From assembly GCA_963855995.1 (NCBI GenBank), contig OY979717.1, positions 3,796,728 to 3,860,727 of the forward strand: DNA of 64,000 bases. The letters run 5' to 3'. Position numbers and translations under genes: made by a program. The number at the start of each line of letters is the position of its first letter. Positions within the stretch are counted from its first letter, which is position 1. A model generated the notes under the pieces. It worked only from the letters and a program-made list of their open reading frames with translations. It did no database searches and had not been told where the DNA came from. The stretch comes from Muricea muricata. Its lineage: Eukaryota; Cnidaria; Anthozoa; Malacalcyonacea; Plexauridae. This document shows positions 2,850 to 43,945 of the stretch, in pieces.

Positions 2850-3083
<234 letters not shown>

Positions 3084-18350: not shown

Positions 18351-18685
18351 CTAGCCAGGCCCAAACAACTGCATTTAATGTTGTATGAACAATCACTGTT
18401 ATGTTTTATGTTTCATCGTTTAGTTTTTAATACGTTTATTGCATATACAGGGTAAAGCAAAAAATGTAGACATTTGCCAAATCTGCTTTAGATTACGCCA
18501 ATCTTCTCAACAACTTGCGTAAATATGGGGGTTTTATGGTATTTTAGAGCATGCTACACGAAATTGATTTTAAAGGCGACCTTTGAAGTTAATGGGGATT
18601 GTTGGGTCTTAAAGTTAATGGGGATTGATTAAAGTTTAAGACAGTTTGTTAAAAATTACTCCCAACGAGCAGTTATTATTTTACA

Positions 18686-19026
18686 GATTCCGGCTTTTCA
18701 TGTTCCTGGTTTTACAGATTCCGGCTTTTCATGTTCCTGATTTTACAGATTCCGGCTTTTCATGTTCCTGGTTTTACAGATTCCGGCTTTTCATGTTCCT
18801 GGTTTTACATATTCCGGCTTTTCATGTTCCTGGTTTTACAGATTCCGGCTTTTCATGTTCCTGATTTTACAGATTCCGGCTTTTCATGTTCCCGGTTTTA
18901 CAGATTCCGGCTTTTCATGTTCCTGGTTTTACAGATTCCGGCTTTTCATGCTCCTAGTTTTACAGATTCCGGCTTTTCATGTTCCTGGTTTTACAGATTC
19001 CGGCTTTTCATGTTTCTGGTTTTCTC
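18686..19026 (+). repeat. 31-bp repeats, right end, 11 copies
   Basis: Eleven head-to-tail units of GATTCCGGCTTTTCATG followed by TTCCTGGTTTTACA at an exact 31-bp step from 18686, with single-base variants. Because 31 is not a multiple of 3 and the unit has no stop in any forward frame, it creates long spurious ORFs in all three frames. Confidence 0.95.
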
Positions 19027-21374: not shown

Positions 21375-22180
21375 TAGTTATCATAGCTTATTATGGTTTA
21401 ATGCATATGCCATGTTGTATATAATTTTAAAACTCATAGCATGGGCTACACAAATAGCATTACTGATGACCCACCCAGTGGCGTAACCAGCTTCGATAAT
21501 TGGAGGGGCGAATATTCATATATTTGTGTTCACAGACCTTAAAAACAATCAATTTCAAAAGAAATTAATGATGCAAAACATGATACATGAATATTCGCCC
21601 CTCCAATTATCGACGCTGGCTACGCCACTGGACCCACCGGACAAAACCATCAAAGTAAAACATCCTAGGAAAGGCAAAAAAGTGATTATTTTGCCTAGCC
21701 ATCTTTAAATTCTATCTAGTCAAAAACTAAACATCACAAAGTGGTGATTTTCACTGGTGAAGTAGATTACATCCCTGCCAAGAAATTAATGGATGCTTTT
21801 GGCACTGCACTGCATTTTGATTTCATGGCAAGAAATATTATGAGAGGATCTCATTCATCTTGACTCATTTTGGTAAAGAACACTCAATTTTTATGATAGG
21901 CCAAAAAGCATCCATTTATTTCTTGGCAGAGATGTAATCTACCTCACCAGTGAAAATCACCTCTTTGTGATGTTTAGTTTTTGACTAGATAGAATTTAAA
22001 GATGGCCAGGCAAAATACTGATCACTTTTTTGCCTTTCCTAGGATTTTTACATTGATGGTTTTGTCTGGTGGGTCATCTGTAATGCTATTTGTGTAGCCC
22101 ATGCTATGAGCTTTAAAATGATATATAACATGTTGCATATGCATTAAAATAATAAGATATGATAACTATTAGAGCTTCCC
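21375..22180. mobile_element. About 800-bp foldback element in the gypsy protease
   Basis: The arms are near-complete reverse complements: TCTAATAGTTATCATA at both ends, then GCATGGGCTACACAAATAGC, GACTAGATAGAATTTAAAGA and GATGCTTTTGGC-type centre. Arm length is about 320 bp once the nested hAT MITE is discounted. The duplication is not clear (TA is possible). No coding content. Confidence 0.75.
21476..21630. mobile_element. 155-bp hAT-like MITE, 8-bp duplication
   Basis: Termini CAGTGGCGTAACCAGC and the inverse CAGTGGCGTAGCCAGC; GACCCACC is duplicated exactly at 21468-21475 and 21631-21638. The other arm of the host foldback element (near 22070) gives the empty site with a single GACCCACC. 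Eight-base duplication and a CAGTGGCG end are typical of hAT MITEs. Confidence 0.9.
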
Positions 22181-26370: not shown

Positions 26371-28199
26371 ACATTGAATTGTAAATTTTTTAGGCTATTA
26401 CCAGTATTTATTAATTTCATATTAATAGCAAGTCTATTTTCTATTAACAATGTCTATTTCTATTAAGTCAATTTTTAATTAAGTCTTCATCTATTAACAG
26501 CAACTGAATTTTCTCTTTACTCTACATTTTAATTGGATGATTACAGTTTGACAATTTCTGGCTGTCCTGAATTTTTGGGCATCTAGAGGCCTGAATCTAT
26601 AAAAGTGAAGTATATATTCAATTATTAGAGGCAGATCAATTCTCATCTGACAGGAGAGGTGCAGATGTTCCTAAGGGGAGGGGCATTAGTACACACCCCT
26701 ACCAACCCCCATCCCCCCTCCCCTAAAATCTGCCCTTGTCAATTATCATGTTTTTTTTTCACTAAACAGGAATGAAATGCTGGTGCTGCATAATTTAAAT
26801 CTTATAAATATATATATGTATATAATAATTATATATGTTAATACTGGTATTGTTTTGATTAATAAAATCATTGTTCATTAATATAGTTGTTTTTTATTAT
26901 ATATCAAGTATCATAATTAGACATACATATGATAACAATTAATTGTTATGACCCTTTAAGTGTTAATGGCATGACACTGCTCTGGATAGCCCAAATATAT
27001 ATTGTTCAGGTGAGGACACTATCTTGCTGAAATAGTCTAGGTATGCAATTTGTAACTCAGGCAAATGTTCCTTGGGATCCCAATCTATTGAGAACACACT
27101 AATTTAAATTTATACGTGTAGATTGAGAGAGTACTTTGATTTATGTTGATGAAAATATGAAAAAAATTCTTACCTTCCTGGCCTTGTCCCTGTCATATTG
27201 ACTGCCATGTGGGCTAACATTTATCTGGTGAATTAGCAATGTTCAGTACAATTCCCCTGAAAAGTGAAAAGCATTCACTATGACATGTATAAAATTTATT
27301 ACCACTTATATTAAACTAAACAGAAATTTAAGAAAAAAGTGGTAAAAACGAATTTGTGAAACAGTTTTATTGAAGATGTACATTTTTTTGTACGTTAAAT
27401 TTGATGCAAGTTGTTTTCTTTTAAGTTGTGTTTACAATTTATACAATTGTTGAGCAAAACCAAACACAGGTTCTTTCAGCCCAAGACAACTGACCTCTGA
27501 TCGGAAAGCATGCTGTTTTAAATAAAGCATGGACATATGTATAAATTTTGTTGTACTGATATGATGGTATCATGGCATCTGAGTACTAAATATTAAAGTA
27601 TGGGTCACTGGGTCAGGTTTTATGTTGTTCAAGTTCACTAGCCATGTAAAATATAAAACTTTACCTAAGTCCTTTCATATCTTTCGTCCTGTTTCCCGCT
27701 GTTGGCTGCAGAGGCTATCAACGGCGCACAGTATTTTCATTTCATATTCGCAGGCGGTTTAAATGTCTTGACCATAAATTCACAAATGAAACGACGATAT
27801 CAATTTTTTAATACACGATGTATTAAAAAAATATTTTCAATCGCTAAACCAGGGGGGGAATTTCGTGTCGCCCGCAAGTAAATGAGCCCTGGTCAGTGGT
27901 AAACCGCATTAACGGCGTACCCCAGCTGTACCCCAGTGACGTCAAATCCGCCATGTTTTTGGGGACACTTTGAAGTCGAGAGCCCGATCTCCAGATATAT
28001 AGTATAGCTCAGTGGTGAACACGCTCAAATTCTCGCAGCCACGTGGCCAGATCTGAGCTTCCATCAAATTTTCCAGGTAGAATGGATGTCATTTTCATTA
28101 ACACCAATACAATTGATATCTTTGTCATCAAGCGTCGCGGGAGTATTGCGCATGTGCTAATCCATGGATTTGGCGTGAAAACCAACGGGAGGCGCTAAT

Positions 28200-28510
28200 A
28201 GACCCTTCCAAGGTTAGCGACGCCATTTTGCAGGGGGTGCAAAACTGCTGGGGCGAGCGCGCGGTCAGCTATTTTCGCCATATAATTTTATATTGAGTGA
28301 ACCAATATATCGTGTGGAAATTTGGTTGGTTTTCTGATAAGGTATCATAAAATCGTCAAAGTTTTTGTTCTATGGATGGTCTATTTGCTTTTGTCAAACG
28401 TCAGAAAGAAATTTGAATGAATTTGATGAGGTATAATGTCTTCATACTTTGTTTGCTACGACACCTTCTTACGACTTGTTTATTTTGCGCTATTCATAAC
28501 AAAAGCGCGT
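28200..28510 (+). repeat. Left 311-bp TIR of the ISL2EU element
   Basis: Starts AGACCCTTCCAAGGTTAGCG. The first 100 or more bases are identical to the right TIR; over the full length about a dozen differences are visible. Confidence 0.95.
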
Positions 28511-28782
28511 TTAACAAAGCAGTATTTTGAGAAAACCACTTAACCACACACGAGAGTTTGCAAAGGAAGCTTGACAAAGGTGCCGCCGCATATGAAAGCG
28601 TAAACAGTTTCCAGGTGCGAGTTTAAAAACCGCAATATCAAATATCACTTGTTAACGCCGGCTGTTTGGAGTGTTTCATGCTGTTTAGAAACAACTTTTC
28701 TCTGGTCAAAGCTTTGTCTTATATTCTGTGCCAATAACACTTTTTAAAGATAATATTACGATTAGCACTGTGGCATGGCTTA

Positions 28783-31002
28783 ATGGCTACAAACCAGCCT
28801 GAAGAAAAACTAAAATACGACGATTTTCTTCACCTGACAGCATCGTCACTAAAGGACTTTTTAGCTTTACGAGGTCTGAAACAAACTGGAAGAAAGGCTG
28901 AACTTATTGCCCGAGCATTTGGAGCTTACGAACTAAATGCTCCTAAAAAGTTCTCTCAAGAGCAAATATACGAGAAGATTCGGGAAGAGTATGCGAAAAG
29001 GTTAAAATCCAACTTGATAGAAACTGACCCTAAAGCGTTACCAGATTCAGCATGGGCTGACGACGTTCAACAGTGGCCAAAAATCGACGATGGAAAATTA
29101 TTTAGTTACATTTTGAGAATAAAGGCGGTAGATGTCGACTATATCGGAAAGTATAAAGATCAAAAAGCATATTCGTACTGGATGAGTGGTTTTGTTGACA
29201 CTGTTTTTGTTGCCAAATGTCCCTCAAACATTAAATTAATTTTTCTGAAGGGAAAGGTGTCTCCATCCCAAAGATTAAACGAGGATCCACATGAAGTGTG
29301 GGTGTGTATTGAAAACAGCAACACTGATTGCAGGATTGTAACTTCATGGTGTACATGCACTGCAGGAACTGCAGAAGCATGTAACCATGTTATTGCTCTC
29401 TTGTATAAGGTGAACTATGCTTGCCACAAGGATTATATCTCACCGGCTTGTACAAGCATCCCACAAGGCTGGAATAAGGGCACAAAAAAAGAAGTCATGC
29501 CAGAAAAACTTAAAAATTTAACTTTTCGCAAGGATAAAAAAACCAAGAAACCTAGCCAAAGGGACAGTGAAATGAACCAATCGCTAAGAAAAGATTTTGA
29601 TCCACGAAAGCTGCAAGAGAGACAGTTAACCAATGAAAGAGTGTCAGAATTTTTTAACAGCATCAAAGAATGTGTACCCTCTGCTTGTGTACTATACTCC
29701 ATTGAACATGCAAAAGATAATGGTCTTCCCCCACCTTTACTAGAAAAAGCTATTGATTTCATGTCCAGTGAAGAAATAAAAAACAAGTCAGTGGAAGAGG
29801 CTGTACCCCTGTTCATTTGTACATCCCAAATTACAAGTGAGCAAGTCATGAGGGTTGAGCATGAGACAAGAGGACAGCATGCTAGTGATACTTGGAGACA
29901 ACAGCGAATTGGAAGAATTACTGCATCAAATTTTCATAAAGTGTACACTAAATCGGAAACAATTATGAAGACCAGACAAAATTAAAAAAAAAAGCCACAG
30001 TACAGTCCCACCGTATTTGACCTTGTTAATGAGTCAGAGGATATTTCACACCTTCCACAAATAAAATGGGGGATTGAGCGTGAGAAAGATGGTGTCAAAA
30101 GCTTTATGTCAGATATTGCCAGCCAACATGATGGCGGTCTAGAAGGTTTTAGAACGTGTGGTTTATATATTAAGGGTGACTACCAATATCTTGCTGGCTC
30201 ACCAGATGGGCTCTTTACATGCAAATGTTGTACTCCTGCTACGCTGGAAATTAAGTGTCCATACTCTGTGAGGAATGATAACATTATGGAGAAAGAAATT
30301 TATGAGAAGGTGGATTTTTTGGAAGACAACAATGGTATCCCACAGTTAAAGCGAACCCATCGGTATTATACTCAAGTGCAGGCACAGATGTGGCTATGTG
30401 GTGTTAAGCATGCTTTCTTCGTGGTGTGGACAATGGGTGGTAAGCCGTTTTACGAGAAAATTAAGTTTGACCAAGCCTTTATTACAAAGGTAGTGAACAG
30501 TCTAACCTTGTTTTATAAAGCATATGCATTGCCATGTATACTTGGCTATCGAGAGCTTTTTCAATGTCCCAAGTGTGAAAAAGTTATTTTGGAGAAGGAA
30601 GAAATAAACAATCCTTCAACAGAAAACAGCATTTGTTGTAATGTTTGTGGTACTTGGTGGCATCTTTCTTGTGCAGGTCTAACTGAGCTACTGGAGCACA
30701 TATCAGACTCATGGCTGTGTTTCAGTTGTCTTGTTGATAATGTTGATTCCCCCAATGATGCAAGCAGCAGTGATGACGAAAGCAATGTAGGCGAGATAAG
30801 TGGTCCCTCAACTTCAAAAGGCTCTGTACAATCTGACAAGGCAACAAACAATGTATGCAGTGTTTGTCATCTCAAAGCCATTCCTGTGGGAGGGGAGCAT
30901 GTGTGTTCTGTTTGCAGAAATGCTGTGCATGCCTGGTGCAGTAATCATGAAGATGTATCAAGCTCAGCTGACTTGGTTTGCTTATTCTGTCTGAAGGTAT
31001 AG
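28783..31002 (+). pseudogene. SAP-SWIM-YqaJ-PHD nuclease with one in-frame stop
   Basis: A single 740-codon frame interrupted only by TAA at 29983-29985 (codon 401), just before an A10 run. Domains in order: SAP (SLKDFLALRGLKQTGRKAEL, about residues 18-50); SWIM (CTCTAGTAEACNHV, about 195-210); YqaJ/lambda-exonuclease-like core with RIGRITASNFHKV, the Asp in LAGSPDGLF, Glu-Lys in LEIKCPYS and Gln in YYTQVQAQMW; a PHD finger (CPKCEKV to WLCFSC); and a final Cys-rich finger (CSVCHLK to LVCLFC). YqaJ is a 5'-3' exonuclease fold; its role in ISL2EU transposition is unknown. The gene converges on the transposase, 1.6 kb away. The stop could be a real mutation or an assembly error beside the homopolymer. 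Confidence 0.85.
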
Positions 31003-31498
31003 TTTAGGAAAAGACATCTTAAACTTTTCTATCAAACATTTTTTTATATGAATTATGAACAAAAAGGATTTGAAAGATTGTACATTATAAATTAATGCTT
31101 TTAGATTTGAATTATAGTCTGTAAATTAGCATGCCACATTGGACCAAACAGAAAAATGGCCACAACAGGGTTTAAACCAGACCCCTGAGGTTAAGATACA
31201 AAAATGTTTTATTTTGTGGCCTTTAACCCTAACAAGAGGTTGCCTGTCAAGTCCTGCTATAGTTAAACATCAAGCAAAGTTTTTTCTTAGTACTATGTGG
31301 TGCTTAACATATCAGTGATTTAACTGATCTATTTTAAATTGTATTTCACTCAAGTGCAGTAATTGATATTTCAACTTTCAAGATTTGTTTGATGTTTTAA
31401 TTAGCTAATAGTTTATTAGAGATTATATACATGATTTAATCTTTATACTGTAATATGTCAAAATTTCAACATGTTTTTCATATTTGTTTCTATACAAA

Positions 31499-31652
31499 GG
31501 CTGCGAAAGATCGATAAGTGGGGGAAGGGCACGTATTCATATATTTGTGTTGTGCATCATTAATTTCTTTTTAAATTGATTGTTTTTAAAGTCTGTGAAC
31601 ACGAATATATGAATATATGCCCCTCCCCCAATTATCAAACTTCTGCAGCCTC
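31499..31652. mobile_element. 154-bp palindromic MITE inside ISL2EU
   Basis: GGCTGC...AAG ends with an internal palindrome (ATTCATATATTTGTG, TTAAATTGATTGTTTTTAAAG) closely related to the core of the hAT MITE at 21476-21630. It sits between the two convergent genes. The rest of 31003-32587 is non-coding intergenic and 3'-UTR sequence. Confidence 0.7.
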
Positions 31653-32587
31653 TGTTTTTATAAACTTAAGCTGTCAATTTTAGCAAGTATATTTTTAATG
31701 AAATAAATAGAATGGCCTAATGGTAATACCATTTTTGTACTGGTAATAAAGTTGTCAAGATTTTTATAACAAGAAAATGAAGGCCATCTTTTACTTATTC
31801 CACAAACCAATTTACAAACACTTGCTTACTGGAATCACTTTTATCTATAATCACAATGTCTGACAGTTTATCACTTAATAAATGTGTTACTAGTTTGTAT
31901 TAAGCTTGTGATTGCTTTTTTCATTAGAAAAGAAAAAAATTAGACCAATCAACCATTTCAAAATCAGACTTTAAATTGTTTTAAGGGTTTGTACGTTCCA
32001 AAATTTAATTAAATCAAGGACTCTTCAAGGAATTTTAAGGCCATGCTTTAGGAAATTTAAAGATCAATGAGCTAAAAAATGCCTGGTGAAGCATCATTAG
32101 CAACCATGAAAGGTCACAACAAAGAACTGAAAAACATGTTGTAGTCCTAGTGTAGAGCAAAAATAACTTGCCATTGGTTAACAATTCAGGGCTTTTCAAT
32201 CACTTTAGAAATTTAAGGACTTTTGAGGCCCTGCATTATTTGTTTTTTATTCAAGCATATTCACAGACAGTCAAGTTTTGTATGAACCTTTTTTTTATTC
32301 CCTTTTATCAAAATATTGTGCTGTTGGTAATAGGGATAAAGAAACCAGGATCCAGTTGCTCTAAAGGAAATATTCATGCAGCATATTTTTATGTTAACAA
32401 AAATTTTTCAAAAATCTTTTTTGAGATTATTAGTTTTTTGATTTTATATTTTCAACACAAACAGATTATGTAAAATACAGAAATTAAAACAATGAAATAA
32501 ACTTTAATATATCCTAGATTAGCGCTTAGCTGCATTAATTAAACAGCCAGCCACAAAAATACTCTAACACAAGTTCAGAAAGTTATT

Positions 32588-33997
32588 TCACACACACAGA
32601 GGAGGTAACAGATTGCACAGAGAACAACAAACACGAACAATGTCGTCAGCCTCAGACAATAAGCTAATGGGGAGCTCATGCTTTAGTATACTAAACACTT
32701 TCATCCGTCCGATGGCTTGTTCAACATAAATCCTTACGTTCGCTATGTTTGATGTCTTCTTAACATCAGCAGGAAGCATTTGCATTGATGCAGCTTTGCT
32801 AGGGGGTATACAAAGTGATGCCATTCTCATCATAAGCTCTTCCTTTATCTTAAATCCCCTATCAGCCATGACTTCATCAAATGGCTGTAAAAGGTCTAAA
32901 AATCCACTGTCTTTTACAATAAAAATGTCAGTAGCTCTGCCGCCATATGTAGGTGAGACATATGAAATTGCTCCATTAGGCGTTATGGCTACCAAAGCTT
33001 TGAAAGTATAATGATGTTTATACTCACTCCACATTGTAGCTGCTATGTCTAGTCCACTTGGTGTTTCAGTGAAGCACTCAAAGCAATCGATAATACATCG
33101 TACTTTTGGATAGAGCTTAGCAAAACAACTAGGAAGGGTTTTCCTCACCTGACTTCTGCTCGGCCAAATAATAAGCACGGACAATTCTTTTGACATAAGT
33201 TTTATCCATGTAATGAAGATGCTACTGGCTGTTGCTGATGACACGTCAAATCTAAATGCTAAGTCCTCAGTCAGTAGTGCCAGGCGCAGCTTCATTAAAG
33301 TTAATAGTATCTCCTGTTCCAGAGATAGTTTTCTTGGTGGACCACTCTTTTTCCCAGTACCAGCAAATAGTTGAAAAGGTGTAGCAGTTCCCTTAGGTGC
33401 TTCCTTTTCTGTCTGCTTTGCACCTCGCCAATATTGCATGTTTTGAGCTTTTGGCAGGAGAAAGTTAAACACACATTTAAAACTTTCAGTAGAGTTCAAA
33501 CCAGTGTAAAGTTTTACCTCAAACTCTCTTGTAAATTGCTCAAAACGAAGGGGAACCTTAACTGCAATATCAGTATCAACTCCTGGATTTTCTTCCATAT
33601 GGTCGTCACTATCTGAATCAGATGAAATCTGTTTAGAACTCGTTGCTTCGTCTTTCTCTTGCATTTTGTTTCGTTTGCGCTTTTTAGGAGTGCTAGCATG
33701 GTGGTAGTCTGAAAGCGTTAAAAAAACAGAAGGAAAGTCCGTTGCAGGATTGTTTGGGGTTCTGTTTCCCAACGGAAAATGATTTGAACAAACAAAAGTG
33801 CCTTGAGCTCCTGGGGTCGGATTGAATGCGTCACTTCTGCTCTTCGCGATTTGCTTACGCCAAACTTCAGCCAACTGAGGGTCTTTTGGCCACTTGTGGA
33901 ACACAAGAGTGTCCACATGAGATCTTTTTTGTTGAAGATCAGTATATCGTTTGTCATTATCACAATATCCAACAGCACAGCGAGCGTGTTTTGGCAT
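32588..33997 (-). CDS. ISL2EU transposase, THAP and DDE (IS5-like)
   Basis: An uninterrupted 469-residue ORF. The N-terminal THAP zinc finger has C7 and C12, a VFHKWP motif and CSNHF, ending near FPSVFLT. After an acidic Ser-rich linker comes a helix-turn-helix (LSLEQEILLTLMKLRL, TEDLAFRFDVS), then a DDE_Tnp_4-type core with the Asp in RCIIDCFE, the second Asp in DEVMADRGFK and the Glu in RIYVEQAIGRMK. THAP would bind the TIRs; DDE cuts and joins DNA. The length and all catalytic residues are consistent with an active enzyme. The start was chosen because the THAP Met-Pro opening is at the first ATG. Confidence 0.92.
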   Translation of the reverse strand: MPKHARCAVGYCDNDKRYTDLQQKRSHVDTLVFHKWPKDPQLAEVWRKQIAKSRSDAFNPTPGAQGTFVCSNHFPLGNRTPNNPATDFPSVFLTLSDYHHASTPKKRKRNKMQEKDEATSSKQISSDSDSDDHMEENPGVDTDIAVKVPLRFEQFTREFEVKLYTGLNSTESFKCVFNFLLPKAQNMQYWRGAKQTEKEAPKGTATPFQLFAGTGKKSGPPRKLSLEQEILLTLMKLRLALLTEDLAFRFDVSSATASSIFITWIKLMSKELSVLIIWPSRSQVRKTLPSCFAKLYPKVRCIIDCFECFTETPSGLDIAATMWSEYKHHYTFKALVAITPNGAISYVSPTYGGRATDIFIVKDSGFLDLLQPFDEVMADRGFKIKEELMMRMASLCIPPSKAASMQMLPADVKKTSNIANVRIYVEQAIGRMKVFSILKHELPISLLSEADDIVRVCCSLCNLLPPLCV

Positions 33998-34164
33998 ATT
34001 TGATGTGCAGCTTTATGCATGGACCTCATATTTATATTAGTTTTTTGGACTTTTGCACCTGGAAACTGATTATGAACTGCGGCGGCACTTTTGTCTAGCT
34101 TCCTTTGCAAACCTTCGTGTGCGGTTTTTGCAAAATACGGCATTGTTAAACCGCATAGGTTCAT

Positions 34165-34475
34165 ACGCGCTTTTGTTATGAATAGCACAAAGTAAACAAG
34201 TCGTACAAAGGTGTCGTAGCAAACAAGGCATGAAGACATTATACCTCATCAAATTCATTCAAATTTCTTTCTGATGTTTGACAAAAGCAAATAGACCATC
34301 CGTAGAGCAAAAACTTTGACGATTTTATCATATCTTATCAGAAAACCAACCAAATTTCCACACGATATATTGGTTCACTCAATATAAAATTATATGGCGA
34401 AAATAGCTGACCGCGCGCTCGCCCCAGCAGTTTTGCACCCCCTGCAAAATGGCGTCGCTAACCTTGGAAGGGTCT
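34165..34475 (-). repeat. Right 311-bp TIR of the ISL2EU element
   Basis: Reverse complement of 28200-28510, ending CGCTAACCTTGGAAGGGTCT. Both TIRs end inward at AAAAGCGCGT. Confidence 0.95.
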
Positions 34476-34971
34476 ATTGGTTTTCTAACAGTGAAATCAG
34501 ATTAATAAAAATATAGTAAAATGCCTAAAAATAAATGTCATTTGTCGCCAGAGTATTTACTTTTTCCAGTTTTTTTTTGTTTTGAAGCATTGCAGATAAC
34601 ACAAAGTTAGAATTTTTTGGGCTGAATAGGCCAAGTTTAATAAAATACACTTGCGAGAACACAAGGTATAAACATGTATTTTGCGCCGTGTGGCGGTATT
34701 TTTATGACTATATATCGACATCGTCAACAAGAATTACATACAAAGCAAAAATTGTGCAATGTATCTTCTGTGAACGCGTTAATGATATATATAACAAGGT
34801 TATCCGTATATATTATAGCAAGGGCAAAGACCTGAAGCGCGAATGAGGAAAATCTATGTGTCAATGCGCATGGTATACAGTCATATTCACATTAGCATTG
34901 TTTTGCGCTTTATGGTTTATTGCATACAAGATGGAAATTAGTCTCGAGAAAAAATTTACATCGATGAAAAT

Positions 34972-35074
34972 GCTCAGTTGAAAAGATTTCTGCAAGATCG
35001 CGGTGTTAGTGTGAACAGCCAACTTAAGCTAGGGTTAGTCGCTATCGCTTGTGCTGTTGAAAGCATGAAACTGT
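34972..35074 (+). pseudogene. SAP-like exon fragment, copy A
   Basis: Reads LKRFLQDRGVSVNSQLKLGL then VAIACAVESMKL, the leucine/arginine/glycine pattern of a SAP DNA-binding motif. It is cut at its 3' side by the BEL element; the start is disrupted by a small indel compared with copy B at 43946. Parent gene not recognised. Confidence 0.5.
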
Positions 35075-36009
35075 CGAGAATGTTGCCTCCAAACTGTAGT
35101 CCTCGACAAAATCACTCACTTGGTATTTTAAATGTATTTATTAAGCTACACAAAACAATAGCGCACGGGCTTCAGGGGCGGATCTAGACTTTTTCCTCAG
35201 TAGTTTCCAATTTTTTTATTGTAACATTAGGGCCCCCCCCCTGGAGGACATTTTCCCGACCCCCACTTAAAACAAAAAGTATTCATTGAAACAACAGTGC
35301 TTTAATTGAAGATAAATCTATACCTTCATTAACAACATTTGCCACACAAGACCATGCAAATATATATTTAATATTACAAATTTATTCCTGTTGAACTACT
35401 GTAGTGTTGGAGTAAGTTTGTGATGGACTTGTGTGTTAAATCACTGAATAAGTACAACAGATTTATATCAGAAAAATTCCAAACTTGCCCCTTATTCAAT
35501 GGAGATTGTTGACAAATGTTACCAGCATATGAACTGTATACAGTTATCTCTTGGTTTTTGCAACATCCACCACCTCAATACCACAGCCTGCCAAAAGATG
35601 AGCAAACTTCATTGCAGCTACAGAAATATTGATTAACAATATGAACTACATAAAGTTATACCTGACATCTCAGTCAGTTTCTTTTAAAAATATTTAATAA
35701 CAGCAACAACAAGTAATCTAAAAGATGATACAATGAATAATAAATACATGAAAAATGAACACCATTATAATTAAAGATAATTAAACTTTATTGTGAGTAA
35801 AATAAAGATTATGTATGTAGCTGTATGGTGTAAAATATATACCTGATATTTTCCTGGTAGACAGCAAGGATCAACAATCAATGAAAGTAAAGAACAGGAA
35901 GGAATTCACATAACAACACAGAGTCCATGAGAACAAATGTCAGCAAATAAAGGGAAGCAAATACATGTGTAGCAAATTGATACCAGCTTTTTTGCCTCTG
36001 TACTGTTCA

Positions 36010-36899
36010 CTGTCAGTTTAAGGATTAAAAAATCCATACAGTTCATAACTCACAAGTACTCTAGAAACAGCTAGTGAAATAAGAAAAAGCAATGTATCTA
36101 ATCTTCCAAGACATTTGCCATCCTCATTCTTCTGGGGTGTAGGTTGGAATAAATCAATGAGTTCATTGAGATCCAGCTCAATCTCTGCATGAATGTCCAT
36201 GAGTGCTAATCAATTGAGTCTATCATGGCTCATTGTGTTCCTCAAGTAGTTTTTTAGGTTTCGAAGAGTTGAAATAGATCTTTCACAATTACAACTTAAG
36301 GATGAAAATGGAATAGTTGCCAATACTTGTAGGACAGCAAAAATATTATAAAACATTCTTTGTCAATGAATTTTATTAAGGCACTACTTAGTCTGTCAGG
36401 ATACTTCTTCTTTTGCTTTTTTTTCCTTCCACAATCTATGCACACAGGATTAATTCTGCTTCTAAGCCAGCTATGTTTGTTACTGTACGTCTTGATTGTA
36501 GCTCTCACAAAATTCTCTCACATTATTTTTCCAATCCTGGGGTTGTCCAAGCAAAATTGATGGAATTATTGACAATCCTTTATAGCAAATATGTACTTGA
36601 GCTTTAAATCTGATGTCAAGTTGTTGAATTGCATGGTCCAAGAACACTCTTGTCAAATTTATCTTGTAATACTGCTTTGGTGCTGCAGCTGGAGCATTGG
36701 CTCGACGAATTTGTCTGTTAATAATTATCATTAGCATGGTTGGATCACTTTGAATACTCCCCGCTAATTCAGCTGCTTCTGTATATAGTAAATGATGCGC
36801 GCAAAATGATCGTAACTCCAATGTATCAGAAAAAGCACTAGACAAGTATTCTTCCCAGTAATATATCGAACGTAGATCGACCAAAATCATTGAAATCAC
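36010..36899 (-). pseudogene. hAT transposase, C-terminal part
   Basis: One block (36899 to about 36490) reads LTRVFLDHAIQQLDIRF, VHICYKGLSIIPSILL and QPQDWKNNVREF. A second (36340 to 36010) contains LATIPFSSLSCNCERSIST and LRNLKNYLRNTMS, the hAT dimerisation motif, then a stop and HAEIELDLNELIDLF. The N-terminal zinc finger and catalytic core are absent, so the element depends on another source of transposase. Confidence 0.75.
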
Positions 36900-37009
36900 A
36901 CTTATTATAACTAGCGTGTGCTAGCGTTCTGTTTGAAGGGAGTGTAGTTAAACCTGAGTAGAACACATCTAACAAAACAGACGACGCAGGGTGGTAGGCT
37001 TGGGTATTT

Positions 37010-37400
37010 ATACTTTTCTCGGTAGTTTCCTCAGTAGTTTCCGACCAATCAGAGCTCGAGGCTCAGTAGTTTCCAAATGAATCTTGCTGACGCAGTAGTT
37101 TCCAAAGGCAAATCTTGCTGACGCAGTAGTTTCCAATCGCCATATATGGAAACCTCAGTAGTTTCCTAATAGTTTCCTTATAAACGCGAGTGTTTCCCAC
37201 TGGTTCCCAGTATCCCAGCAGGAAAATGCGATGAAAAGCAGCAAAATTTGCGCGAAATTTTTAAAAATTCGTTCAAAAAATGGCCAGAAATACGATATTT
37301 GAGAAGAATATTCTGTATTCTATTTATTTTGGTGAAGATTCTTAAACTGACGGTGGTGATTAAACTTTCTCGTCGAAAAATTCTCAGTAGTTTCCGGAAA
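37010..37400 (+). repeat. hAT subterminal CAGTAGTTTCC motif cluster
   Basis: Six exact CAGTAGTTTCC copies plus degenerate ones within 390 bp of the right end, with one more near the left end (35200). Repeated subterminal motifs are transposase-binding sites in Ac and other hAT elements; the function here is inferred. Confidence 0.7.
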
Positions 37401-37592
37401 CTACGGAAACTACCCTAGATCCGCCCCTGGGCTTCACGTCACAGACTCACTATCAACTCTAACTTACACACTCGTCGCATCCTTATATACAGAGCCGTGT
37501 CGAGGCTCCTACGTCATACATGGCTGTATTAAATGTCAACTAATTAACTAACCGGATATATATTAATTAAAATTAGACACCAGTCTCCAACA

Positions 37593-37602
37593 CACTCCCC
37601 CA
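37593..37602 (-). promoter_or_regulatory. BEL polypurine tract
   Basis: Minus-strand TGGGGGAGTG immediately before the 3' LTR start (TGTTGG). A purine run at this place primes plus-strand DNA synthesis. Between here and the pol stop at 37766 is a short 3' UTR. Confidence 0.6.
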
Positions 37603-37765
37603 TATAGTTCATAGATGAGCTATATGACAAGTTGAGACTGAGTTCGAGAACGTTCGTTTGACGCTGTAAACAAAACAAGTAATCTATAATAAACTATATA
37701 CGTTATGCGTTCTATTTATGTTCATTCACGCGTATACTTAGCTATCATTCAAAGTTCGTTGAATG

Positions 37766-40492
37766 TTACTGTTCATCGTTCTTTACGATATCTTGCATGC
37801 GTAGTCTTGCTGCGGCTGCTGCGTCTCTCGTTGTTCGTGGGACAAATGTGGGTGCCGTGGGATCAGGTTTCTTGAAGTTCTCTACGTCGCAGGTTAGTTC
37901 TAGGGGGTAAAGGTATTGAATTGGTCTTTCAAGCTCCCCGTTCACTGTTTTGACTCTCGCTCCTCGTACAATTCCGTCTTTTCCTTTGATGGTTTCTCTC
38001 ACAACTCCGAGCTTCCATGTGTTCCTGTTCTTGTTCTTGTTCTCGTCCTTGATGATCACAGCTGTTCCTCGTCGTGGTGTGATGGTCTGCTTGCCTCCCC
38101 CGTTCACGTGACGTTCACGCAGACTTTTGACGTACTCCCGAGACCATCGATTCCACACTGATTCCTTGCATTTAATCATAAACTTCGCACGCTTCCGTAA
38201 ATCTCGGTTGTCAATATGGTGGGGTTTTAACTCAGGCAGAACACTTGGGTTGATGTTCAGCATGGAACTAGGGGTTAGTACCGGAAGTTCAACATCGTCC
38301 TCGATATAACTTAAGGGTCGGTTGTTCAACGCAACCTCGACATCCAGTACCACTTCTGACAACTCTTCCCATGACAACGTATTGTTCCCGATAGCCTTGT
38401 AAAAGACTCGTTTGAAAAGACCGATTAGCCGCTCAAACTGTCCTCCCCACCACGGGGCTCGACTTAGATTGAATCTCCAATGGATCGCACGATCTGCAAG
38501 AAACGCGTGGAACTTTTCGTCTGTTCGAACCTTGTTGAGCCACTTGTCTGCTGCTTTGAAAGTCGCGGCGTTGTCTGAGTAGATAATTTCTGGGCGACCA
38601 CGTCTCGCGATTAATCTTTTGAGGCTAAGTAGGAATTCTTCAACTCCCAGAGACTGTAAAACTTCGAGGTGGACTGCCCTCGTTAAACTACAACCGTATA
38701 GCACCAGGTATGCCTTCTTTTGGGCTCTCGTTTTTGATTGGTAGCGAATTGGTCCTGCGAAGTCTACCCCCAGGACCTGGAAAGGCGCCGAGCCTTCTGT
38801 TCGCGTAGCTGGTAGATTTCCAGGTGGTGGTTTTTGGTACGCTTGGCTTCTAAATTTCACACAGCCAAAACAATCACTTCGAGCCTTTTTCACCATTCGA
38901 CGTAACTTTGGTACCCAATATCGTTCTCTGACTCGTGCCATGGTTGAAGCCACTCCACCGTGGAGTGTTGTGAGATGAGCTTGTTCTACGACTTTTCTCG
39001 TAAATTCGCTCTTTTCTGGAAGAAATATTGGATACTGCCCCGCAATTCTCCCTCTACACTCGAGGACTCCCGTGTCGTTAGGTTGCAGATTCAACAGCAC
39101 TTTCACGCCTTCGATCTCCCCTCTTCTGTCTGCTTCTTGCTGCACACGTTTGATCCACCAAGTCGTTTGGTGTTCAATTTCATTTGTCTTCAATGGGCCA
39201 TATTCACGCTCAGCACTGGGACTTCGACAGTTACGGATGAAACGTTGTATCCACGCTCCGATTCTGAGCACTTTTCGCAGTCGATAAGACTCTAGTAACT
39301 CGTCGAACTCGTCGCGTTGTGGGCTTGCTGTTACTAACGCGTGAACTTGGCGTGTGTGCTTCAATTCGTCGGTTGTTTCCTTGCTTGGCTTCAACGCTAT
39401 TTGTAGTGGCCACTTCGTTTTATCACTCAACCAACTCGGACCATGTTGCCACAACTCGTTGTTGGTCACGTATCCGCCACGACTTCCGAGATCAGCCGGG
39501 TTCTGATCAGTCGTTACATGGTGCCATATTACTCGTTCGTGCTCGCGGATCTTCTTCACACGGTTGGCCACGAATTGACGATACTCGCCCTGACCGTTGA
39601 TCCAGTACAAGGCTACTGTAGAGTCCAGCCAGCAATGCACTTCCGTAACTTTCTCGACTCCAATCGCTGCTTCAACATTTGTTACGAGATTCACCGCCAT
39701 ATGCCCTGCTACAAGTTCCAACCGTGGAATAGTGAGGTTTTGTTTTGCTAATCGAGCCTTGGCACACACCAGACCTCGCGTAGTTGCTTGATCTTGTTCG
39801 ACGACAGCGTAAACAGCCGCGGAGACTCCCTTTTTGCTGGCATCACCAAACGCATGTAGGGTTATTGCCTTGACAGGTTGTTGACGAGGGACCAATGATC
39901 GCGGTATTTCGAACCGTTGTGGTAATTGTAGACACCAGTCTCTCCATTGTTTCGCGATTTCTACCGGAAGTTCGGTGTCCCAGGAATGATGAGCTTCACA
40001 CATTTTACGATAAAGGACCTTTCCAAGTAGCGTTGTGGGGGAAATCAACCCGAGAGGATCATACACACTGGCGAGCTGCGAAAGGGCACTTCTTTTCGTT
40101 GTTGCTGGTTCTTTGTTTACCGTATCGACGCTTAAGGTGTCTTCTTTCTTGTTCCAAGGAAGTCCAAACAACTTTGTCTCAACGTGTCTCGGTCCCAGTT
40201 GCTGTTTAGCAAAGGTGGATTGGTAGTCGTTTATCGCGTTCTCCTTCGAATTACGTTCGTCACTTTCGAGGGTTTCTACATTGGAATGCCATTTGTGCAA
40301 TTTGAAGGTTGCGTCTTCGAAGATTTCGACTGCTTTTGTCTTCTTTTCTCTCACTTCGGTCGTGGTTGTTCCTCCTGTCATCAAATCGTCGACGTAAGCC
40401 CTTTCTGGAGTTCTTCTACGAGATGTGGGTACCGCTCTTTCCATGATTTTAAATGTTCGTTCAGGACTCCACCCAGCAGAAATGGAGAACAC
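37766..40492 (-). CDS. BEL pol: RT active site, RNase H, integrase
   Basis: Opens through the RT active site (RAYVDDLMTGG), the BEL motif PTRRSALSQLASVYDPLGL-like segment, RNase H (HAFGDASKKGVSAAVY with Asp; CWLDSTVALYWI; DQNPADLGSRG), an HHCC zinc finger (HLTTLHGGVA to CFGCVKFRSQ) and integrase core with the Asp in LGVDFAGPIRY, the second in IIYSDNAATFK and the Glu in WWGGQFERLIG. A C-terminal GTAVIIKDENK region ends at 37766. Only the first few codons are out of frame with the 5' RT segment. Otherwise intact over about 900 residues. Confidence 0.92.
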   Translation of the reverse strand: MFSISAGWSPERTFKIMERAVPTSRRRTPERAYVDDLMTGGTTTTEVREKKTKAVEIFEDATFKLHKWHSNVETLESDERNSKENAINDYQSTFAKQQLGPRHVETKLFGLPWNKKEDTLSVDTVNKEPATTKRSALSQLASVYDPLGLISPTTLLGKVLYRKMCEAHHSWDTELPVEIAKQWRDWCLQLPQRFEIPRSLVPRQQPVKAITLHAFGDASKKGVSAAVYAVVEQDQATTRGLVCAKARLAKQNLTIPRLELVAGHMAVNLVTNVEAAIGVEKVTEVHCWLDSTVALYWINGQGEYRQFVANRVKKIREHERVIWHHVTTDQNPADLGSRGGYVTNNELWQHGPSWLSDKTKWPLQIALKPSKETTDELKHTRQVHALVTASPQRDEFDELLESYRLRKVLRIGAWIQRFIRNCRSPSAEREYGPLKTNEIEHQTTWWIKRVQQEADRRGEIEGVKVLLNLQPNDTGVLECRGRIAGQYPIFLPEKSEFTRKVVEQAHLTTLHGGVASTMARVRERYWVPKLRRMVKKARSDCFGCVKFRSQAYQKPPPGNLPATRTEGSAPFQVLGVDFAGPIRYQSKTRAQKKAYLVLYGCSLTRAVHLEVLQSLGVEEFLLSLKRLIARRGRPEIIYSDNAATFKAADKWLNKVRTDEKFHAFLADRAIHWRFNLSRAPWWGGQFERLIGLFKRVFYKAIGNNTLSWEELSEVVLDVEVALNNRPLSYIEDDVELPVLTPSSMLNINPSVLPELKPHHIDNRDLRKRAKFMIKCKESVWNRWSREYVKSLRERHVNGGGKQTITPRRGTAVIIKDENKNKNRNTWKLGVVRETIKGKDGIVRGARVKTVNGELERPIQYLYPLELTCDVENFKKPDPTAPTFVPRTTRDAAAAARLRMQDIVKNDEQ

Positions 40493-41060
40493 GTAAGACC
40501 GAACAACGCTCTTGTGAACCGATACACGACCGTGTCATCACTTCCGGGGGACTTCCAATGAAACCTCAAGGCGTCACGTTCCTCTTCTTTGATCCTGATC
40601 TGCAGGAACGCTTTCTCGAGGTCACCTGTGAGCAGAATGGGAAGGAATCGTGCCCGGACGAGTATGGACCAAAGTAGGTTTTGAAGCGTCGGACCAGGAT
40701 TAAGACAATCGTTTAACGACGGTTGTGTGTTAGATTCCTTCGCTGATGCGTCGTACACGATGCGCAGTTTTGTACTCTCTGCATCTTGTTTCGCGACTCC
40801 TTTATGAGGAATGTAAAACTCTTTCTTTGTTGGATTTGGTGGCGCTGTCTCGATGACTCCTTGTTTTAACTGATCCTGGATGATTTCGTCATATTGCTCG
40901 TAAGTTCCATTTCTTTCGAGTCGTTTCACGAGATTGGCAAGTCTCCGTTTACTTCCGGCTTCGTTTGTTGGTAGGTCTGGATAATTGGGCTTCCACGGAA
41001 GATTAGTCTCATACCATCCCGCAGAGTCTCTCTCAAGTCGTTCTTTGAAGTCCTCGTACT
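40405..41060 (-). pseudogene. BEL reverse transcriptase, N-terminal part
   Basis: Reads EYEDFKERLERD, then QGVIETAPP, KLRIVYDASAKES, LTGDLEKAFLQI (first catalytic Asp) and ALFGLTCSPFLL. It is in a different frame from gag and from the rest of pol. Because gag and the downstream pol share a frame, the two indels (near 41062 and 40405) compensate each other. Confidence 0.85.
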
Positions 41061-42892
41061 CGCGGCGCCTCAGGGGTGTCAGCGAGACCTAGGATGTCCA
41101 GACGACAGAGATCTTCGAAATCAGCGCGAGAAGTTTGCGTGAACAGCATGGTGCCTTTGTCAAACTCGGCCCCAGGGCTCATGATCGACCACCCGAACTT
41201 CGTTTGTTCCGCCACAGGTTCCCCAGGACCACCCACGAGAGGTTTTGAGCACGTCTTGATTCGTGCGTACTCGCTTATACCAAGTATAACGTGGATTGGT
41301 AACTTATCTTTCGTGTCGTTGTCGTCCATTCGAACAGGGTTGAGATGTTGATATCGTGCAATTAAAACATCATATTCCGGATTGTTAATTGTCAAAAGTT
41401 CACTTTTGCTGACCTTAGTTAATTTCGCATCTAATTCAAAGTTTCCGTCTATCGAGCTAATTTTCGCGTCAAAAATTTCCATTAGCGCAGTTTTCGAGTT
41501 CATTAACATGTCAATTCGCTGACGCTTAGTCTCGCTTGGTTTTATCTTGATGGTTTCAATCAACTTAGCAGATACATATGAGCTCCCGGCGCCTGAGTCA
41601 ATTAGAGCTCGACACTTAAATCCATTAATTTTGACTACTACCGGGAATATGCCGTCACCACTTACACCATCCGTCATCAGCTTCGCATTATCATGAGATT
41701 CATCATTCTTCTGCTCGCAAATGGAAGTATGATGACGTCTGCTGCAATGGCCGCAGGATATTTTGCTAGAACATTCCGAGGCACGGTGCTTTTTAGTTGC
41801 GCAGTTAAAGCAAAGTCCGTTTTTTGCTAGGATCCCTTTTCGCGCTTTTACGTCAGTGATTTTCATGCATTGGTTTGCTTTATGCCCCACGTCTCCACAA
41901 TAAACACAACCCCGGGGTTTAAAATCACCGTCTCTGGTGTGGAATAATTTTTTCCGATTGGGCTCGTCCCGTTCATTGGCGGATATGGGGTTCCTTTTCA
42001 CCCATTGTTTCAAAGCTTCAGTCAGGTTTCTAAAATCCCAAGTCTCCCATTCAGGGTCAGTGCGCACGAGATCCCCCCGAATTCCTGACAGTTTATCCAA
42101 GGTCATCGACACGTTTCCGCTGATAAGGTCTAGTTTTCCTATTGTCTCAAGGGCTTGGACTGAATGAGAAAGTTTTTCGTAAAATTCCGCTATTTTACGA
42201 GGGTTGGCACTAGTTATATACGGTAATTCAACAATCTCCTTCACGTAACACTTTACTATCTCGGATTGTTTACCATACTTGTCTTCGAGAATGGCTTTCG
42301 CACGATTATAGCCTTCGGCTGTGAAGGGCAGGGCTTCAACACTACGTTTAACTTTGGGTTCAAGCAATTCCAACAAGTACGTTAGTTTACTAATCGGAGC
42401 GATAGAACTTTTATCAATTGCCTCAGAGAATTGACCCCAAAATCTGGGCCAATCCATAAAAGATCCATCGAATTTAGATATCACAAGTTTTGGCAGTTTG
42501 GCAACTCTAATATCAGATGTTTCGCATTCCACGGTTTCCGGATTTTTTTCAGACACGCAAAGTTCAGCTTGCATCTTCAACTTTTTCTCATGCATTTCCA
42601 TTTCTAATTTAAACAACTCCTCTTGTGCTACAAACTTCTCATTACGTTCGGCGTCAGCTAGCCATTGTTTTAGCCGCGTCACTTCTGTATCTGCGATTTC
42701 TAGTTTGGCTTCGATTTCAACGTTCCACTCATCGATTTTTGAAATATCTTCTTTATCGTTAATTTTTTGCGCTTCAACAGTGCCTTTGCACTGGTTTGCT
42801 TCTTTAATGATTGTTTGTAGCGTTTCGAGATGCCGTTTAATGGATTCACGCTTACCTGCATCCAGAATCTTGCCTGTTCTTTTGACTGCCAT
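41033..42892 (-). CDS. BEL gag and aspartic protease
   Basis: The start ATG at 42892 (MAVKRTGK) was chosen because the frame upstream runs into the LTR. An N-terminal coiled coil is followed by a BEL gag (DUF1759-type) region with VISKFDGSFMDWPRFWGQF, three Cys/His knuckles (CVYCGDVGHKANQC, CFNCATKKHRASEC, CGHCSRRHHTSIC) and a retropepsin with catalytic ALIDSGAGSSYV. It ends QTKFGWSIMSPG and TSRADFEDLC, typical of BEL. A one-base shift near 41062 separates it from RT. Confidence 0.9.
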   Translation of the reverse strand: MAVKRTGKILDAGKRESIKRHLETLQTIIKEANQCKGTVEAQKINDKEDISKIDEWNVEIEAKLEIADTEVTRLKQWLADAERNEKFVAQEELFKLEMEMHEKKLKMQAELCVSEKNPETVECETSDIRVAKLPKLVISKFDGSFMDWPRFWGQFSEAIDKSSIAPISKLTYLLELLEPKVKRSVEALPFTAEGYNRAKAILEDKYGKQSEIVKCYVKEIVELPYITSANPRKIAEFYEKLSHSVQALETIGKLDLISGNVSMTLDKLSGIRGDLVRTDPEWETWDFRNLTEALKQWVKRNPISANERDEPNRKKLFHTRDGDFKPRGCVYCGDVGHKANQCMKITDVKARKGILAKNGLCFNCATKKHRASECSSKISCGHCSRRHHTSICEQKNDESHDNAKLMTDGVSGDGIFPVVVKINGFKCRALIDSGAGSSYVSAKLIETIKIKPSETKRQRIDMLMNSKTALMEIFDAKISSIDGNFELDAKLTKVSKSELLTINNPEYDVLIARYQHLNPVRMDDNDTKDKLPIHVILGISEYARIKTCSKPLVGGPGEPVAEQTKFGWSIMSPGAEFDKGTMLFTQTSRADFEDLCRLDILGLADTPEAPRVRGLQRTT

Positions 42893-42976
42893 AGTCAGTT
42901 GGGTAAGTTTATTTGTCCAGATTCGTCTCCATACTGGCGAGTTCTTCCAAATAACTGGCGGTACAGCTATCCCGTC

Positions 42977-42986
42977 GGAGGTGCCA
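42977..42986 (-). promoter_or_regulatory. BEL primer-binding site
   Basis: Three bases after the 5' LTR the minus strand reads TGGCACCTCCGACGGG, beginning with the TGG expected opposite a tRNA 3' CCA. The tRNA was not identified. Confidence 0.55.
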
Positions 42987-42989
42987 CTA

Positions 42990-43250
42990 TGTCGAGAATG
43001 TTGCCTCCAAACTGTAGTCCTCGACAAAATCACTCACTTGGTATTTTAAATGTATTTATTAAGCTACACAAAACAATAGCGCACGGGCTTCACGTCACAG
43101 ACTCACTATCAACTCTAACTTACACACTGGTCGCATCCTTATATACAGAGCCGTGTCGAGGCTCCTACGTCATACATGGCTGTATTAAATGTCAACTAAT
43201 TAACTAACCGGATATATATTGATTAAAATTAGACACCAGTCTCCAACACA
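42990..43250 (-). repeat. BEL 5' LTR
   Basis: 261 bp; in element orientation it begins TGTTGGAGACTGG (possibly two bases inside the listed limit) and ends CATTCTCGACA. It contains an AATACATTTAAAATACC-type AT block. Confidence 0.9.
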
Positions 43251-43945
43251 ACTTCCCGGAAAAAATCGGGTAATATTGATATACCTATACGCTGGTATAA
43301 CTGATATATATTCTTACATTTTCACGACTTTTTACTGCAGATATAGGGTCCGGGTGTTCCATCGTTGATCCATTTTCACCGACAAAATGTAAGCTACGAC
43401 CGATATAGCTGTTTTTAGTGCATTCAAAATTATCACCTCGAATGATGACAAGCTTTTATCCATCTTTGTCGTCTCTCTCCTTCATATCGAGCAGAAGGAA
43501 AGCGAATAAAAAAATATATCATCGCCGTTCGCATTTCGCTTCCATAAATGAGGAAACCGTTCATCGTTTCTACACGTACCCCAAGTGCATTTTTGTAAAC
43601 TTGGCCTACTCAGCCCAAAAAATTGTAATTTTGTGTTATCTGCAATGCTTCAAAACAAAAAAAAGAAAAAATAAATACTCTGGCGACAAATGGCATTTAT
43701 TTTCAGGGATTTTACTATATTTTTATTAAGGAATCTGATTTGACTGTAAGAAAAACCAATTAGCGCCCCCCGTTGGTTTTCACGCCAAATCCATGGATTG
43801 GAAAAGTACGACAAACATCAGTTGTAGGCTTATACTTATAGCTAGTATAGCGCAATCACGATATTTAAAAGCGTTCTAGCTATAAGCTCGGGTTACTCCT
43901 TATGATATGGATTAAGACAGTTTAGAAAACAAGTTCAAGACCATG

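Follow-up and report, generated by a model that had tools for sequence, protein, structure and literature searches.

Within a 64,000-nucleotide stretch of Muricea muricata contig OY979717.1 (the window) lies a cut-and-paste DNA transposon of the ISL2EU type, which we compared with its relatives in one assembly of 453 Mb. The element carries two convergent genes: a transposase on the minus strand and, on the plus strand, a second gene encoding a YqaJ-type nuclease and interrupted by a single in-frame stop (Table 1). The comparisons below leave little doubt that this is a recently inserted two-gene ISL2EU element and that at least one of two insertions, its own and that of its nearest sister, took place with no full-length YqaJ protein encoded by the element's own sequence.

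Ends, genes and target site of the element

The boundaries, length and AT target-site duplication given in an earlier note on this DNA proved exact. Outside and inside sequences meet at CTAAT/AGACCC on the left and GGGTCT/ATTGG on the right (slashes mark junctions), with AT on both sides and a target of the form A/AT/T. The terminal inverted repeats (TIRs), put at 311 bp in the same note, align over that length without gaps and with 11 mismatches, the outermost 142 bp being mismatch-free; a gapped match extends to positions 391/398 (E 2e-151). All 11 left/right differences recur identically in a sister copy on C15 (L009), and all are present in another on C1 (L010). They are therefore a family trait that does not date the insertion in the window, and TIR divergence was ruled out as an insertion clock.

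The observed-to-expected ratio of CpG dinucleotides (CpG o/e) is 1.17-1.30 in the TIRs, with 14-15 CpGs apiece, compared with 0.43-0.54 in both genes and 0.18 in the intergenic part; the ratio is 0.49-0.59 in the flanks and 1.13-1.17 in two stretches of retroelement within the window. One possible reading of these CpG-rich ends and CpG-poor interior is that the ends are promoter-like and less methylated. Between the two genes lies a small inverted repeat resembling a miniature inverted-repeat transposable element (MITE), with a relative elsewhere in the window at 21492-21613; as a sign of age it was ruled out, because both sister copies also carry it.

Table 1. Coordinates in the window of the element, its genes, its target site and the transposon that it interrupts
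Feature	Position	Strand	Remarks
ISL2EU-type DNA transposon, 6276 bp	28200..34475	.	Bounded by TIRs and AT duplication; supported by empty site and sister copies
Left AT target-site duplication	28198..28199	.	
Right AT target-site duplication	34476..34477	.	
Left TIR, 311 bp	28200..28510	+	CpG o/e 1.30
Right TIR, 311 bp	34165..34475	-	CpG o/e 1.17
Second gene, first piece, 400 aa	28783..29985	+	SAP, start of nuclease region
In-frame stop in YqaJ gene	29983..29985	+	Common to sister L009; coding stretch in relatives
Second gene, remainder, 338 aa	29986..31002	+	YqaJ/RecE-like nuclease domain, then PHD-like zinc finger
Small MITE-like inverted repeat between both genes	31494..31655	.	Carried by L009 and L010 too
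Intact transposase, 469 aa	32588..33997	-	THAP, HTH_Tnp_4, DDE_Tnp_4; open reading frame (ORF) without internal stop
Outer part of host transposon's left arm	28159..28199	+	Cut by ISL2EU insertion
Remaining left arm of host transposon	34476..34653	+	
Right arm of host transposon	43582..43799	-	
Empty target site GGCGCTAATTGG	43756..43767	-	In opposite arm of host transposon

The transposase was described in the earlier note as an intact THAP-DDE protein, and it is: THAP (5.5e-8), HTH_Tnp_4 (5.5e-15) and DDE_Tnp_4 (5.9e-43) each score above the Pfam cut-off. D304, D379 and E426 are candidates for the catalytic DDE triad and C7, C12, C70 and H73 for the zinc ligands of the THAP domain. Relatives of the transposase were not found in collections of viral contigs, genome contigs and phages. 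Structure predictions of the transposase and of the YqaJ remainder, each made without an alignment, had a mean predicted local distance difference test score (pLDDT) of 36.3 and were not used.

The YqaJ gene, claimed to be almost intact, indeed occupies one frame (28783-31002) whose only internal stop is that at 29983, the other two frames holding 38 and 65 stops. In its first piece, a SAP domain passes the Pfam cut-off and a SWIM finger falls short of it. The YqaJ domain of the remainder reaches a Pfam E value of 1.4e-8 (35.5 bits against a cut-off of 22), and the same piece matches phage RecE-like exonucleases (PHROG E 4.2e-10), with no relatives found in the viral contig collection; its PHD-like finger, below the Pfam cut-off, matches the MLL5 PHD structure at E 9.8e-6. 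The first methionine past the stop is codon 442 (position 30106), downstream of the WGIE motif at codon 429, which probably belongs to the nuclease site.

A copy of the target without the element is present in the window as well. As had been noted, the reverse copy near 43770 has one AT and no insert: GGCGCTAATTGG, read from 43767 to 43756. The repeat around it aligns with the left flank over 40 of 41 bp (E 8e-15) and with the right flank over 162 of 183 columns (E 4e-63), alignments so strong that a chance match is excluded. The single AT also settles the parse of the duplication; had TA been duplicated, the empty site would read CTAATATTGG, and it does not. Both this parse and one without any duplication were ruled out.

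Sister copies and the broken YqaJ gene

A query with 401 bp of the left end gave 38 matches in the genome. The C15 copy is of full length (6276 bp) and differs from the window copy by 8 substitutions and no gaps, and the C1 copy, also of full length, is 99.65% identical. A further copy on C7 spans 3116 bp and is internally deleted, its YqaJ region gone and its transposase interrupted by stops. The earlier note would have taken many copies above 97% identity as support for recent activity. Such copies are few: besides the window copy, two of full length reach at least 99.65%, and the segments of the deleted copy lie at 96-98%. The 1-kb flanks of the window, C15, C1 and C7 copies have no similarity to one another at E 1e-5, and the window and C15 copies each have their own AT duplication. 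Leaving aside gap columns and 5 sites in the damaged left end of L010, the three full-length copies differ by 22 substitutions, of which 2 set the window copy apart from the other two, 6 set apart C15 and 14 set apart C1; 5 of these 14 look ancestral in that they also occur in C7 or an older copy (one with mixed evidence). As C15 differs by so few substitutions at an unrelated site and only 2 of the 22 are private to the window copy, the sequence comparison identifies the window insertion as recent and its family as low in copy number, in line with the recent mobility proposed earlier.

Two further observations concern the copies themselves. In L010, five of the first six left-tip bases are altered (1414-1433) and there is no left AT, with the right end intact. 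Two ends about 35 kb apart, L012 and L013 (C1:49205623-49240370), may belong to one older ISL2EU copy, perhaps swollen by later insertions.

The stop at 29983 is also found in the C15 copy, and the C1 copy is frameshifted there by one additional base. That YqaJ is broken at the same spot in all three full-length copies suggests that the element moved without making its own nuclease. Because the stop is common to the window and C15 copies, whose flanks are unrelated, at least one jump would have followed the break; the nuclease would then be either dispensable for moving or supplied in trans. In the sequence of events that we propose, the stop arose before the window copy and C15 split, and the window copy is a recent arrival in the left arm of another, older DNA transposon. 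The transposase would bind the long TIRs via its THAP domain, and its DDE domain would cut the element out and join it to the A/AT/T target, whose AT, seen duplicated, would be filled in on both sides; the duplication and the target are observed, and the biochemistry is inferred.

Over longer times, YqaJ has been maintained. Between the window copy and L019 and L024, the proportion of amino-acid-changing sites that differ (pN) is 0.21-0.27 in YqaJ and that of silent sites (pS) is 0.78-0.82, with silent sites saturated; for the transposase, the window copy compared with L035 gives pN 0.36 and pS 0.79, again with silent sites saturated (L034 was left out, and a comparison with L057 was likewise unused). 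As pN is far below pS between families, selection has preserved YqaJ over the long term. Of the private substitutions among the three full-length copies, 8 of 9 in YqaJ are amino-acid-changing, as expected of a gene no longer constrained, although the number is small and the transposase is similar with 3 of 4. Judged from these comparisons, YqaJ has long been conserved but is broken in this sublineage, and the sublineage still moved at least once more.

The family may thus amount to a natural YqaJ knockout, a lineage that kept transposing and for which full-length YqaJ from the same element would not be required, despite its conservation by selection; we regard the case for this as evenly balanced. 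If true, YqaJ would have a role outside the cutting and joining steps and might, for instance, help copy number, repair or long-term survival. An alternative, which we put slightly short of an even chance, is that YqaJ is needed and that the nuclease is supplied in trans by an intact relative or an unassembled allele. Relatives in the same genome do retain long open YqaJ frames, of 720 aa in L019 and 775 aa in L024, and the long-term selection on YqaJ, seen in pN far below pS between families, is in favour of this reading. However, L019 and L024 are only 57-67% identical to the window copy in their YqaJ pieces, and their TIR tips about 75-79% identical over the matched 73-110 bp. No intact YqaJ of the window family was seen among the 120 matches listed for the remainder query (119 of 283 candidates scored), where the three matches at 99-100% are all broken copies. 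As a single assembly was covered, an intact YqaJ allele may exist elsewhere, a point against the main reading. No test of YqaJ in transposition was recognised in literature searches, limited to open-licence papers.

A harmless stop, with the nuclease still made by way of a short intron or recoding, is improbable. Around the stop there are five GT...AG stretches, 54 to 99 bp long, whose removal would preserve the frame, and an A-run is a classic slippage site. Yet an intron this short would be unusual, and the stop sits at the start of the A-run, so that slippage within the run would not avoid it. Moreover, six relative loci (L019, L024, L035, L046, L054 and L056), about four families by eye, code through the stop region uninterrupted and stop-free. 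An intron spanning the stop was accordingly judged unlikely in spite of the in-frame GT...AG stretches, and the stop is very probably a real lesion, given that relatives code through that stretch. L041 and L044 are also open across the region, L041 with a stop upstream; in L026, YqaJ is broken downstream of it, and L012, an older copy, has decayed and has stops upstream. A further rival reading takes the window copy and its nearest sister for a single insertion that the assembly or a segmental duplication has doubled, which would make the shared stop uninformative. It would fit their gap-free near-identity across 6276 bp but is almost certainly wrong, given the dissimilar 1-kb flanks and separate AT duplications. 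The break followed by a further jump makes the need of YqaJ for jumping directly testable; otherwise, this is an ordinary, well-delimited ISL2EU copy.

The interrupted host transposon and other features of the window

A genome search with the 43570-43810 stretch around the empty site gave at least 41 matches. By their coordinates, 37 of the 41, the window's own right arm included, cross the insertion point without an insert; the others are the window's interrupted left arm and three matches that start past the point and are uninformative. Besides the window's pair, at least ten pairs of this arm in inverted orientation within 9 kb were counted by eye, and the four arm pairs fetched each bound a DNA transposon about 1.3-1.5 kb long. 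In L059, L060 and L061 the left arm starts with AATCCATGGA, an uninterrupted GCGCTAATTGG occurs in at least one arm of each of the four fetched transposons, and L061 has the outside flanks of the window copy in common. The arm pairs, the uninterrupted arms and the flanks of L061 thus point to one host transposon in the window, at about 28159-43799. On this sequence evidence, the 'empty site' belongs to the right-hand terminal repeat of another, older DNA transposon, whose left arm holds the ISL2EU element.

The interval 28159-43799 forms a layered nest, the older TIR transposon being interrupted by both ISL2EU and a BEL/Pao retrotransposon. In the latter, the minus-strand stretch 37766-40534 encodes a Pao peptidase domain and an integrase zinc-binding domain, and a 2.25-kb insert with GGGCTTCA on its flanks apparently splits the left long terminal repeat of the retrotransposon at 35174/37429. 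Elsewhere in the window, tandem arrays lie at 2850-3082 and 18678-19023, the second with a repeated FTDSGFSCSWF-like peptide in an open plus-strand frame.

Relatives across the genome and comparison with known groups

A search with the transposase gave at least 94 matches, merged to 84 places. At least 45 of these have a YqaJ match within 6 kb, all 45 in convergent (tail-to-tail) orientation, where random places are expected to give about 0.29 YqaJ neighbours; among places with at least 50% identity, the fraction is 16 of 26. Such pair counts are lower bounds, because only the best candidates were scored. A very young lineage has spread with YqaJ broken, though 45 of 84 transposase places pair with YqaJ. 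Intact ends of relatives in the genome also start with AG. Of seven copies whose two outer tips are both preserved within a single fetched locus, six read AAT/AG...CT/ATT, and 20 of 23 single intact ends adjoin AAT or ATT, counts that leave out L015 and the degraded left tips of L010, L012, L016, L018, L024 and L025.

Han et al. (2015; PMC4482050) sort the groups of the PHIS superfamily by target-site duplication. For ISL2EU, they give an AT duplication in A/AT/T, a transposase with THAP, HTH and DDE domains, and YqaJ as the second gene, in 25 families from 14 animal species with an average length of 4840 bp and TIRs of 6-259 bp usually starting with GG; the functions of second ORFs, and any bearing on transposition, are stated there as unknown. 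The window element shares the A/AT/T duplication, the three transposase domains and the YqaJ second gene, which supports its placement as a new member of ISL2EU, the family named in the earlier note. It differs in being 6276 bp long and in having a broken YqaJ. Several points weigh against the placement: its TIRs of 311 bp start with AG, outside what is published for the group (figures that describe a range and a tendency and do not define the group); three of the 23 intact ends (L014 left, L016 right and L027 right) are exceptions to the AAT/ATT pattern; and 39 of the 84 transposase places lack a YqaJ match within 6 kb.

Membership in another PHIS group or in an unnamed sister group is very unlikely. 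The AG start, reported for Pangu, and the long TIRs would fit it; the 2-bp AT duplication, THAP and YqaJ are all ISL2EU traits. Spy, reported as the sister clade of ISL2EU (PMC11304231), has a related DDE transposase but no duplication, an AAATTT target and one gene (PMC4482050, PMC9179366, PMC11304231), whereas the window element duplicates AT and has a second gene. Pangu makes a 3-bp ANT duplication (PMC4482050), which does not agree with flanks that have only AT in common (AAT and ATT) and an empty site with one AT. PIF/Harbinger, described in the same paper as having a TWA duplication and a Myb/SANT second gene, contrasts with the AT duplication here and with a second gene comprising SAP and YqaJ, for which no Myb match is listed. 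A close known system is PIF-ISL2EU of Daphnia magna, which PMC8594854 places in the same group, in a different host; one gain and one loss in mutation-accumulation lines are reported there, so that the ISL2EU group can evidently move today.

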